This document shows positions 3,355-6,231 of a stretch of DNA of 64,000 bases, one piece after another. The DNA lies in assembly GCA_900143615.1 (NCBI GenBank), contig FREU01000002.1:848663-912662 (forward strand), read 5' to 3'. Numbering within the stretch: the first letter of the stretch is position 1; every line of letters begins with the position of its first letter. The notes beneath the pieces are model-generated. The model made no database searches, was not told the DNA's origin, and worked only from the letters and a program-made list of their open reading frames with translations. Source of the stretch: Rhodobacteraceae bacterium Alg231-30 (GTDB lineage Bacteria > Pseudomonadota > Alphaproteobacteria > Rhodobacterales > Rhodobacteraceae). Position numbers and translations under genes: made by a program.

Positions 3355-4017
3355 TTAATGGCTTACAAAAGGCGCTTCGTCGCCCCAAAGGGCTTCCACT
3401 GTGCGATCACGCCCGCAAGCTTGGCGATAGCGCTTGTAGGCTTCGCTTTGCTTTTTCGGACCAAAGCGCGTCAGAACAACCTTTTTACCTTTGTAGTAAT
3501 CCTGGTGATAATCCTCGGCCTCATAAAACGGGCCAGCTTGCAAAATCGGCGTCACAATGGTTTTGCCCAATGCTGCCTGCGCCTCGGCCTTGGTGGCTTC
3601 GGCAAGCTGTTTTTCGGCTGAATTAGAGACGAAAATTGCTGTTCTGTAGCTTTCGCCACGATCACAAAACTGTCCGCCGGCATCCGTGGGATCAACTGAG
3701 CGGAAAAACATGTGCAACAGCGCCTCGCGGCTCACACGCGACGGGTTAAACCGAATTTCGACCGCCTCGTAATGACCGGTGCCGCCCTTGGTAACCTGTT
3801 TATAGGTGGGCCCCTCGGTGTTGCCGCCGGTATACCCCGACACAACTTCGCGCACACCAGGCACGCTTTCAAAATCGCTTTCGACACACCAAAAACAGCC
3901 ACCCGCGACGGTCAGGACCTCTGTACCGGCAGCATGTAGCTTTTGACCCTGAATAGCGCCCCCTAACAGGATCAGCACAAACAGCGCCACGGATTTCAAA
4001 TTGTTCAGTGTCGACAT
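3355..4017 (-). CDS. msrA: Peptide-methionine (S)-S-oxide reductase MsrA, exported form
   Basis: MsrA reduces the S epimer of methionine sulfoxide in proteins. The catalytic motif GGCFWC is present near residues 39-44, and the rest matches the family (GTGHYEAVEIRFNP, and the YHQDYY segment). I start it at ATG 4017, preceded by GAGGAG seven bases upstream, giving 220 aa. The open frame extends 21 codons further, but without a comparable ribosome-binding site. The first ~30 residues are a hydrophobic signal peptide (KSVALFVLILLGG), so this MsrA probably acts in the periplasm, unlike the usual cytosolic enzyme. It sits alone between convergent and divergent neighbours. Confidence 0.93.
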   Translation of the reverse strand: MSTLNNLKSVALFVLILLGGAIQGQKLHAAGTEVLTVAGGCFWCVESDFESVPGVREVVSGYTGGNTEGPTYKQVTKGGTGHYEAVEIRFNPSRVSREALLHMFFRSVDPTDAGGQFCDRGESYRTAIFVSNSAEKQLAEATKAEAQAALGKTIVTPILQAGPFYEAEDYHQDYYKGKKVVLTRFGPKKQSEAYKRYRQACGRDRTVEALWGDEAPFVSH

Positions 4018-4166
4018 GGTGTAACTCCTCTGGCGCCACGCTGCGGGTATTTCGTAGGCCACACAACCATGTGTCATCAAATGTCACGCCTTGGTGAGTT
4101 GAATTTACCGCTTGGCGAGGTGGCGCTCCGGTTCTAGCGTCTCAGCCAACAGGCGCAGGAGAAATT

Positions 4167-5078
4167 ATGACCGACCACGTGACCACCCATCAGGCGCAAG
4201 AAGACGCGCGCAACGACAACATACTGATTTGGCTGAACGGCCGGATTGTCCCCAAGGCCGAGGCCGTGGTGAGCGTGTATGACAGCGGATTTATGTTAGG
4301 TGATGGCGTCTGGGAAGGGTTGCGCCTCTATGACGGGCACTGGGCCTTTCTGAGCGAACATATGGACCGTCTGTTTGAGGCTGCCAAGGCGATCGATCTG
4401 GACATTGAAATGAATAAGTCTGCGATGATTGCCGCGCTTGAAGACACACGTACGGCCAATGGTATGACCACCGACGCCCATGCGCGTTTGATGGTCACCC
4501 GCGGCGTAAAAACCCGTCCGTTCCAACACCCGGGTCTGTCACAACAAGGGCCAACCGTGACGATAATCATGGAGCATTCGCGCCCGTCCTTGCCGCGTCC
4601 GATCCGGCTGGCCACTGTGCCACATATCCGTGGTCTGCCGATGACGCAGGACCCCAAGCTCAATTCTCATTCTAAACTGAACTGTATCCTTGCGTGCATT
4701 GCGGCTGAAAAGGCCGGCGCGGATGAGGCGTTGATGCTGGACGTGCATGGGTTTGTGAACACCACCAATGCCTGTAACTTTTTCATTGTGCGCAAAGGTG
4801 AAGTTTGGACCAGCACCGGCGACTACTGCATGAACGGTATCACCCGCCAAAAGGTGATCGATGTGTGCCGTGCTGACGGTATTGAAGTGTATGAACGCAA
4901 CTATTCTCTGGTGGATGCCTACGGCGCGGATGAGGCGTTTTTGACCGGCACCTTTGGAGCCCAAACTCCTGTAAGCGAGATTGATGGGCGCACGATTGGC
5001 GCTGGCGACATGGGACCCGTAACCCAACATATTCGCGCGCTTTACAAGAATTTGGTCGCCAAGGACGCCGCCAAATGA
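4167..5078 (+). CDS. PLP-dependent class IV aminotransferase (BCAT / D-amino-acid aminotransferase-like)
   Basis: A 303-aa fold-type IV PLP enzyme. Family marks are the N-terminal SVYDSGFMLGDGVWEGLR, a central Lys in DPKLNSHSKLN (the PLP Schiff-base lysine lies here), and the cofactor-binding FVNTTNACNFF and FLTGTFGAQ segments. Members are branched-chain or D-amino-acid aminotransferases or 4-amino-4-deoxychorismate lyases; the substrate here cannot be assigned. GGAGA lies 4 bases before the ATG. The next gene, 28 bases downstream on the same strand, is a sulfotransferase-like protein. I remember these two protein types joined in one polypeptide in plants (the Arabidopsis 'BCAT-like' proteins), which suggests a shared function for the pair. 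Confidence 0.88.
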   Translation: MTDHVTTHQAQEDARNDNILIWLNGRIVPKAEAVVSVYDSGFMLGDGVWEGLRLYDGHWAFLSEHMDRLFEAAKAIDLDIEMNKSAMIAALEDTRTANGMTTDAHARLMVTRGVKTRPFQHPGLSQQGPTVTIIMEHSRPSLPRPIRLATVPHIRGLPMTQDPKLNSHSKLNCILACIAAEKAGADEALMLDVHGFVNTTNACNFFIVRKGEVWTSTGDYCMNGITRQKVIDVCRADGIEVYERNYSLVDAYGADEAFLTGTFGAQTPVSEIDGRTIGAGDMGPVTQHIRALYKNLVAKDAAK

Positions 5079-5106
5079 CACCGAATTCTTTGGGGGATTT
5101 GAGCAC

Positions 5107-5829
5107 ATGAGAATCGCCATGTGGAGTGGGCCACGCAATCTTTCGACTGCGATGATGTACGCCTTTGGAAACCGCGCCGACTGCGCTGTGGTGGATGAGC
5201 CGTTCTATGCGGCTTACTTAAAAATGACAGGGTTAGAGCACCCGATGCGCACCGAAATTCTGCGGGATCAATCGCAAGATCCACAGCGGGTGGTTTCGCA
5301 AGTTTTAGAGACTATTCCAGCCCAAAACCCACATTATTACCAGAAACATATGACGCAACATATGATTGACGGTGTGCCGCGAGACTGGATGCGCGATGTG
5401 ACCAATGTCTTTCTGATCCGTCATCCCGCGCGGGTCATTGCTAGCTATGGTGCCAAACGTGAAAATCCGACGCTGGAAGATATCGGATTCCTCCAACAGG
5501 CAGAATTGTTTGAATTGGTCCAAACATGGGGGCAGACCCCAATTGTCATCGACAGTGATGACATCCGCCAAAACCCAGAAGTGATGCTTGGCAAACTGTG
5601 TGAGGCCATTGGTTTGGCCTTTGATCCTGCGATGCTCAGCTGGCCGCGCGGAGGGCATCCGGCAGATGGCATTTGGGCGGCGCATTGGTATGGGGCGGTG
5701 TGGAAGTCTACAGGGTTTGCTGGGCCCGAAGGACAATTACCAGACGTCTCACAGGCGCTGCAGCCCGTATTAGAGGACGCACTGAAGCCTTATCGAAAAC
5801 TGCACGCCCTACGTTTGCGTCCGGACTGA
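5107..5829 (+). CDS. Sulfotransferase-like P-loop protein, partner of the aminotransferase
   Basis: A 240-aa protein with a sulfotransferase-type P-loop fold. MWSGPRNLSTAMMYAF at residues 5-20 is the degenerate phosphate-binding loop (PRNLST replaces the classic PKSGTT). The DEPFYAAYLK segment and the FLIRHPARVIASY segment correspond to the 3'-phosphate-binding region of PAPS-dependent sulfotransferases. It lies 28 bases after the aminotransferase and is almost certainly cotranscribed with it. The family is usually annotated as a sulfotransferase family protein, but transfer of sulfate has not, to my knowledge, been shown for it. A GGGGGA ribosome-binding site precedes the ATG by about 10 bases. 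Confidence 0.8.
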   Translation: MRIAMWSGPRNLSTAMMYAFGNRADCAVVDEPFYAAYLKMTGLEHPMRTEILRDQSQDPQRVVSQVLETIPAQNPHYYQKHMTQHMIDGVPRDWMRDVTNVFLIRHPARVIASYGAKRENPTLEDIGFLQQAELFELVQTWGQTPIVIDSDDIRQNPEVMLGKLCEAIGLAFDPAMLSWPRGGHPADGIWAAHWYGAVWKSTGFAGPEGQLPDVSQALQPVLEDALKPYRKLHALRLRPD

Positions 5830-5949: not shown

Positions 5950-6231
5950 TTATCCCAACAGCTTTCCCAATTTCATGGCCACAGACATGTCGCCGGACAC
6001 CTTTAATTTGCCCATCATCACGCCAGTCATCGGGTTGAGTTTTCCGGTGAGTAGCTTGACCAGATTATCCTGTGAAATCTTGATGGTGCAATCCGTGTCC
6101 TGATCGGCAGTGGTGGCCGTTCCGTCCGCCAAAACGATCACGCCATCGTCTCCGCAATCAAATTTCAATGATCCGTCAAACGCCTTGGAGGCTAGCGCGC
6201 TTTGCATGCGCTCTACGATCTGGTCCAACAT
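5950..6231 (-). CDS. SCP2 sterol-binding domain protein
   Basis: A 93-aa stand-alone SCP2 domain. Such domains form a hydrophobic tunnel that binds lipids or acyl chains; free-standing bacterial members have no settled role. The pattern FDGSLKFDCGDDGVIVLADG followed by DCTIKISQDNLVKLLTGKLNP...KLKVSGDM is the usual SCP2 signature. No signal peptide is present, so it should be cytosolic. AGGGAA lies about 6 bases before the ATG. It converges on the sulfotransferase-like gene, and its upstream neighbour on the same strand is the AsmA-like gene. Confidence 0.88.
   Translation of the reverse strand: MLDQIVERMQSALASKAFDGSLKFDCGDDGVIVLADGTATTADQDTDCTIKISQDNLVKLLTGKLNPMTGVMMGKLKVSGDMSVAMKLGKLLG

Follow-up and report, generated by a model that had tools for sequence, protein, structure and literature searches.

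A fold-type-IV aminotransferase-like protein without the Schiff-base lysine is co-inherited with a predicted PAPS-type sulfotransferase in Rhodobacteraceae bacterium Alg231-30 and other Pseudomonadota

Organization of the two-gene locus

The window analyzed in this study is a stretch of 64,000 nucleotides from the genome of Rhodobacteraceae bacterium Alg231-30 (4.54 Mb; G000, contig C9). Two genes, referred to here as AT and ST, are located 28 bases apart on the same strand, as a sequence-only reading of this DNA had reported, and the PRNLST loop which that reading assigned to the second gene product is present within the motif GPRNLST (Table 1). The motifs VDEPFYAAYLK and GDGVWEGLR were also seen in the window. 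Since the two genes are flanked by genes of the opposite strand, they appear as an isolated two-gene unit.

The AT protein matches the Pfam family Aminotran_4 (PF01063; 138 bits, cut-off 28.5), and ST matches Sulfotransfer_5 (PF19798; 296 bits, cut-off 23.2). The genome from which the window originates contains a single ST match and three distant class IV paralogues of AT (28-31%).

Table 1. Features of the AT-ST locus (positions within the window) and loci of other replicons in which AT adjoins transporter genes.
Feature	Position or locus	Strand	Description
AT	4167-5078	+	303 aa, ATG; fold-type-IV aminotransferase-like, without PLP Schiff-base lysine
ST	5107-5829	+	240 aa, ATG; Sulfotransfer_5 sulfotransferase-fold protein
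AT/ST intergenic gap	5079-5106	+	28 bases
Asn166 codon (AAT), motif LNSHS	4662-4664	+	replaces the catalytic lysine
Lys115 codon, TRGVK loop	4509-4511	+	best-conserved lysine (136 K, 2 R of 138)
Thr199 codon	4761-4763	+	replaces the PLP N1-binding glutamate (T 122, S 16 of 138)
GPRNLST loop (ST residues 8-14)	5128-5148	+	
RHPARVIAS (ST residues 105-113)	5419-5445	+	includes R105 and S113
Divergent upstream neighbor	3355-4080	-	MsrA-like by eye; outside the pair
Convergent downstream neighbor	5950-6231	-	SCP2-like by eye; outside the pair
AT with polar amino-acid ABC transporter	L194, L197, L198, L207; plasmid L229-L233, L236, L237		

The ST protein

In an alignment of 120 distinct ST proteins, many of them closely related, residues P9, R10, S13, T14, R105 and S113 are kept in all 120. 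We take the GPRNLST loop to be the 5′-phosphosulfate-binding motif (5′-PSB), and RHPARVIAS, with R105 and S113, is presumably the 3′-phosphate-binding motif (3′-PB). A further set of conserved residues (N11, Y34, M82, H85, D187, W194 and Y195) is absent from a paralogue of 34% identity.

The structural model of ST (pLDDT 89) is most similar to the sulfotransferase domains of Ols (4gox; Z 14.4, rmsd 3.5, 210 aligned residues) and CurM (4gbm; Z 13.8, rmsd 3.6, 210 aligned) and to tyrosylprotein sulfotransferase 1 (TPST-1; Z 13.7, rmsd 4.5, 213 aligned), the three being tied as the nearest folds to the model. A profile search placed CurM first (9e-8) and Ols second (2e-7), and shikimate and adenylate kinases were found further down the Foldseek list. 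The Ols and CurM domains share with ST a fold of the PAPS type at an identity of only 14-15%, and they are parts of polyketide synthases, whereas ST is a free-standing protein. Both sulfate a hydroxyl group, thereby making it a leaving group. The conserved motifs and the modeled fold thus support the assignment of ST as a predicted PAPS-type sulfotransferase, in agreement with the sequence-only reading.

An APS kinase match is present in the window's genome and in 47 of the 48 genomes with ST, compared with 264 of the 348 genomes without it, a difference that kinship alone could produce. The exception, with no APS kinase match, is genome G032 (locus L029), in which the order of the two genes is reversed.

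The active site of AT

The sequence-only reading had described AT as a BCAT-like PLP enzyme, and this description was not supported by an alignment of 138 distinct AT proteins (tblastn E ≤ 1e-40; many closely related, and with a partial row among these and the 120 ST proteins). The column of the Schiff-base lysine contains asparagine in all 138 proteins, within a motif of the LN[ST]HS type (first letter L, F or Y), and the glutamate that binds N1 of PLP, which is present in 4/4 class IV controls, is replaced by threonine (122) or serine (16). The lysine column was anchored on L026, a class IV relative with lysine, and on the Variovorax paradoxus protein 7z79; L026 is the only control that aligns cleanly at this position, the three paralogues from the window's genome being gapped or shifted there.

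None of the lysines of AT is invariant among the 138 proteins. As candidates for a substitute Schiff base, K115 was rejected on account of its replacement by arginine in two proteins, and K164 and K170 on account of arginine in 16. The two proteins with Arg115 (L200 and L203) are the only ones of this kind, and ST is present on both loci.

The residues R68 (138/138), T226 (138/138) and T262 (137/138), which we assume to bind the PLP phosphate as in the class IV family, have been kept. A set of residues is characteristic of AT itself: W49, H105, Q120, D162, H168 and N201 are invariant in the 138 proteins, and K115 (136), Y220 (133) and C221 (134) are nearly so. At least seven invariant residues of AT are lacking in the class IV controls. 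Trp49, His105, Lys115, His168 and Asn201 differ from the four controls wherever these could be aligned; control L004 shows a histidine in the His168 column, but it is misaligned there. This new invariant set favors a working site over decay.

The structural model of AT, of moderate confidence (pLDDT 74), is nearest to 9j32 (Z 26.5, 261 aligned residues) and 7z79 (Z 26.4, 262 aligned), with an rmsd of 3.0. The latter is an aminotransferase-like protein of V. paradoxus that belongs to the same subfamily as AT (E 4e-84 over residues 6-298) and has the same fold and the same LNSHS motif, with asparagine in place of the Schiff-base lysine; 9j32 is its N174K mutant, and Asn166 of AT falls in the same column. 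The loss of the lysine is therefore not new in itself, as the wild-type 7z79 already has asparagine and 9j32 is titled N174K, and the depositors had thus noticed the replacement before. No publication on 7z79 or 9j32 was found among the matches listed in the literature searched.

In comparison with the fold-type-IV PLP transaminases PRK08320, IlvE and DAAT, AT retains the fold and the phosphate-cup residues, but its Schiff-base lysine and N1-binding glutamate have been replaced. It thus has the fold and the Pfam match of a class IV aminotransferase and lacks both of these catalytic residues, and its LN[ST]HS-type motif and full-length similarity place it in the lysine-less subfamily of 7z79.

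Co-occurrence of AT and ST

The presence of both genes (E ≤ 1e-50) was scored in 396 evenly drawn Pseudomonadota genomes that were at least 95% complete. AT and ST occur together in 48 genomes, ST alone in none, AT alone in five (G250, G228, G376, G211 and G303, i.e. 5/53 genomes with AT) and neither gene in 343; the pairing is far beyond chance (Fisher p 1.4e-56, with kinship ignored). Among the 48 genomes with ST, the order AT-ST was found in 33 and ST-AT in two (within 600 bases), which gives 35 adjacent pairs, and in the remaining 13 the genes lie apart. Within the window's own family a hand tally gave 32 genomes of 38 with both genes, six with neither and none with only one. An earlier sample of 150 genomes overlaps the sample of 396.

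A collection of named loci was made from the best 80 of 589 ST loci, which are close relatives and in which the same species may recur. They originate mostly from Rhodobacterales, and also from Alteromonas, an Alteromonadaceae MAG, Leucothrix and Robiginitomaculum. AT precedes ST on the same locus in 56 of these best 80, at a distance of up to 90 bases in 54 cases and of about 760-780 bases in two. In all 24 other genomes AT is present elsewhere, at E ≤ 4e-133 in 23 of them and as a distant match only (4e-80) in G160. The named loci and the genome samples share lineages and are not independent of each other.

The earlier proposal that adjacency reflects joint function is therefore well supported by the 48 of 48 ST genomes that carry AT, 35 of them in adjacent position, and by the 24 of 24 non-adjacent named cases. 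As for occurrence of one gene without the other, which that reading had named as evidence against itself, no ST was found without AT (0/48), while AT lacks ST in the five genomes listed above. Its idea of a two-component system holds with regard to joint function, but not with regard to AT being an ordinary transaminase.

Weaker ST matches (nine in eight genomes, E 4e-26 to 9e-15) were counted as paralogues. These distant Sulfotransfer_5 proteins, from L016 (G067), G373, G424, G288, G214, G406, G313 and G421, share 27-34% identity with ST; G313, G406 and G421 carry such a match alone, with no AT. The ST-like match of G144 (7.6e-8) and the AT-like match of G068 (7.5e-47, lysine present), both from the 150-genome sample, were likewise counted as paralogues. 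The ST of G402 and the AT of G282 and G390, each with one in-frame stop that reflects either a broken copy or a sequencing error, were scored as present.

No third gene was seen to accompany the linked pair beyond ordinary synteny, as judged with our own ORF caller, which overlooks or merges some genes. Fusion of AT and ST in one frame was found in 0/119 adjacent bacterial pairs; because several loci show the same pair, these do not represent 119 independent genomes. Two long frames, of G031 (656 aa) and G140 (548 aa), were rejected as fusions, since AT and ST do not share a frame there and run-through in G+C-rich DNA accounts for the length. Scans of viral contigs gave no relative of either gene, so a viral source was also rejected. 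The five ST matches on plasmids are all distant (25-31%).

In plants, both domains are reportedly joined in one chain in the ‘branched-chain aminotransferase-like’ proteins At3g05190 and At5g27410, whereas AT and ST of the window are separate genes. A literature search by these two gene identifiers returned no match.

Phylogeny and genomic context of AT

A tree was constructed by a quick method from 89 of 139 distinct AT rows (22 and 18 of which were drawn at random), with a single long-branched row as outgroup. Linkage to ST requires five changes on this tree, compared with 28.5 in shuffles. Of the two Rhodobacterales clades distinguished, A1 is composed exclusively of ST-linked rows (40/40), and A2 almost exclusively of unlinked ones (22/23); the exception, L149 (G308), has an AT that again adjoins ST, in reversed order. 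Two further unlinked rows (L139 and L140) branch outside both clades. This quick tree suggests that A1 and A2 are alternatives, one AT having been replaced by another with ST kept, and that re-linkage occurred once.

In clade B, AT is located beside polar amino-acid ABC-transporter genes in 11/11 rows (Table 1). The transporter comprises a solute-binding protein, two permeases and an ATPase, usually with a gene for a GntR regulator nearby, and the loci often also carry genes for a ClC channel, ProC or MmgE/PrpD. The clade includes genomes G228, G211, G303 and G160 (MmgE/PrpD recognized by eye in G211 and G303) and plasmids of Agrobacterium, Pseudomonas savastanoi, Paracoccus yeei and P. versutus, Pantoea, Palleronia and Thioclava; the transporter genes of P. 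yeei are located on the opposite strand. When these four genomes were examined, no ST match was found in G228, G211 or G303, and G160 carries ST (L080). The motif LRLNSHSRLN of the V. paradoxus protein, which is itself outside the tree, resembles that of clade B and sister rows.

The unlinked AT genes of Rhodobacterales have diverse neighbors: an ABC transporter and ProC are encoded near L212 and L214, and TRAP-transporter genes near the AT of D. shibae and P. seriniphilus. No directly adjacent transporter is present at the AT of R. pomeroyi and at several other unlinked loci.

Plasmid neighborhoods were examined for 12 of the 20 plasmid matches of AT. On plasmid pKUB257 of Mameliella alba (L234:1988-13839), an amino-acid ABC transporter and an unlinked AT are followed directly by a choline-sulfatase gene (NCBIfam 592 bits, cut-off 433) and then by genes for DapA-family, D-amino-acid-dehydrogenase-like, SDR and aldehyde dehydrogenase proteins, so that this locus may serve the catabolism of a sulfated amino compound. 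Sulfur-related genes (sulfatase, SfnB, TauE/SafE) were found near AT in three of the 12 plasmid loci, a number that may be due to chance.

Taken together, these contexts suggest an imported amino-acid-like compound. Given also the five AT genomes without ST, AT is not solely a partner of ST.

Possible functions of the pair

The most likely reading is that a PAPS sulfotransferase and a lysine-independent fold-type-IV protein handle the same amino-acid-like metabolite. We give about an even chance to the proposal that AT and ST form a two-protein metabolic unit, in which a PAPS-dependent ST and an AT with a rebuilt site act on one shared metabolite. ST would be a soluble sulfotransferase that uses PAPS, and AT a fold-type-IV protein in whose transaminase site Asn166 has taken the place of the Schiff-base lysine and Thr/Ser199 that of the N1 glutamate. 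The loss of these two residues, together with the kept phosphate cup and the new invariant residues, suggests that the ligand of AT is anionic and amino-acid-like and that AT handles it with no internal aldimine being formed. The former phosphate cup and the loop of K115 would hold a small molecule, with the new invariant residues probably placed in the pocket, and ST would act on this molecule either before AT or after it.

The likeliest single scheme is that a small amino-acid-like metabolite is sulfated by ST at a hydroxyl (or amine), after which AT performs or guides the next step, for instance a cyclisation or a reaction in which the sulfate is the leaving group. Departure of the sulfate under the guidance of AT is a guess, prompted by the likeness of ST to Ols and CurM. 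Co-inheritance, the rebuilt active site, the folds, the distribution of APS kinase and the choline-sulfatase of Mameliella count in favor of the metabolic unit, and the occurrence of AT without ST, the lack of a third gene, G032 with no APS kinase, the 0/119 fusions and the presence of sulfur-related genes near only three of the 12 plasmid ATs count against it.

The strongest rival, which we nevertheless regard as unlikely, is that AT is a pseudo-enzyme, i.e. a non-catalytic subunit or ligand sensor whose retained phosphate cup would hold the substrate, PMP or an adduct of PLP with an amino acid and which would assist ST or control it. Such a role would be consistent with the absence of the lysine as well as the N1 glutamate throughout the family and with the presence of AT in every ST genome examined, but the AT genomes without ST, the transporter-side ATs (often with ProC, ClC or MmgE/PrpD) and the at least seven invariant residues missing from class IV controls argue against it.

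Less likely still is that AT remains a PLP or PMP enzyme in which His168 or another residue has taken over the role of the lysine as base. A precedent for histidine in the lysine's position is found in ColD/E1-type sugar dehydratases, the phosphate cup has been kept, and the invariant His168 lies two residues from Asn166. Electron-sink chemistry is weakened, however, because the N1-binding glutamate is gone from all 138 proteins, and no lysine is invariant.

We consider it very improbable that the pair makes an aminosulfonate, examples of which would be cysteate, formed by C-sulfonation, and cysteinolic acid, which is the head group of SAL, a sulfur aminolipid of roseobacters. Both genes are frequent among the window's family and the named Rhodobacterales, and according to PMC8319176 and PMC11631085 it is not known how cysteinolic acid is made or how SAL synthesis begins. 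However, Alteromonadaceae (L082, L106) and other sampled families have the pair as well, whereas salA appears to be confined to roseobacters according to PMC11631085; and Dinoroseobacter shibae, which makes no SAL according to PMC8319176, has an AT gene on pDSHI05 (a comparison that concerns AT alone).

It is scarcely credible that AT simply transaminates branched-chain or D-amino acids and adjoins ST by accident, and this reading is already contradicted: the best NCBIfam match of AT is indeed a branched-chain aminotransferase subfamily, though at 233 bits, below the cut-off of 363, while the lysine is missing in 138/138 proteins and the two genes co-occur in 48/48 ST genomes and in 24/24 named cases where they are not adjacent.

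Implications

One structure of the AT subfamily is already known, and ST is represented by a Pfam family. Among the matches listed in the literature searched, none was seen to describe a lysine-less fold-type-IV protein strictly paired with a sulfotransferase. Considering this strict co-inheritance and the lysine-less AT, the pair may perform chemistry so far undescribed. In the plasmid records, 18 of the 20 AT matches are named as aminotransferases (‘aminotransferase class IV’, ‘D-amino acid aminotransferase’ etc.) and two are unnamed, and this naming is contradicted by the sequence.

The system offers a clean handle, with two genes, strict co-inheritance, tractable marine bacterial hosts and a solved relative. 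The plant fusions are the best lead: if they carry the same asparagine, the same knock-out logic would reach an uncharacterised plant protein family. As a tentative and rather doubtful possibility, AT and ST, together with these fusions if the asparagine is common to them, would constitute a new enzyme system, in which a lysine-stripped transaminase fold acts without a cofactor, or non-covalently, on a molecule sulfated by its partner, and thus a branch of sulfur and amino-acid metabolism that is widespread but has gone unrecognised, and that marine bacteria would share with each other and possibly with plants.
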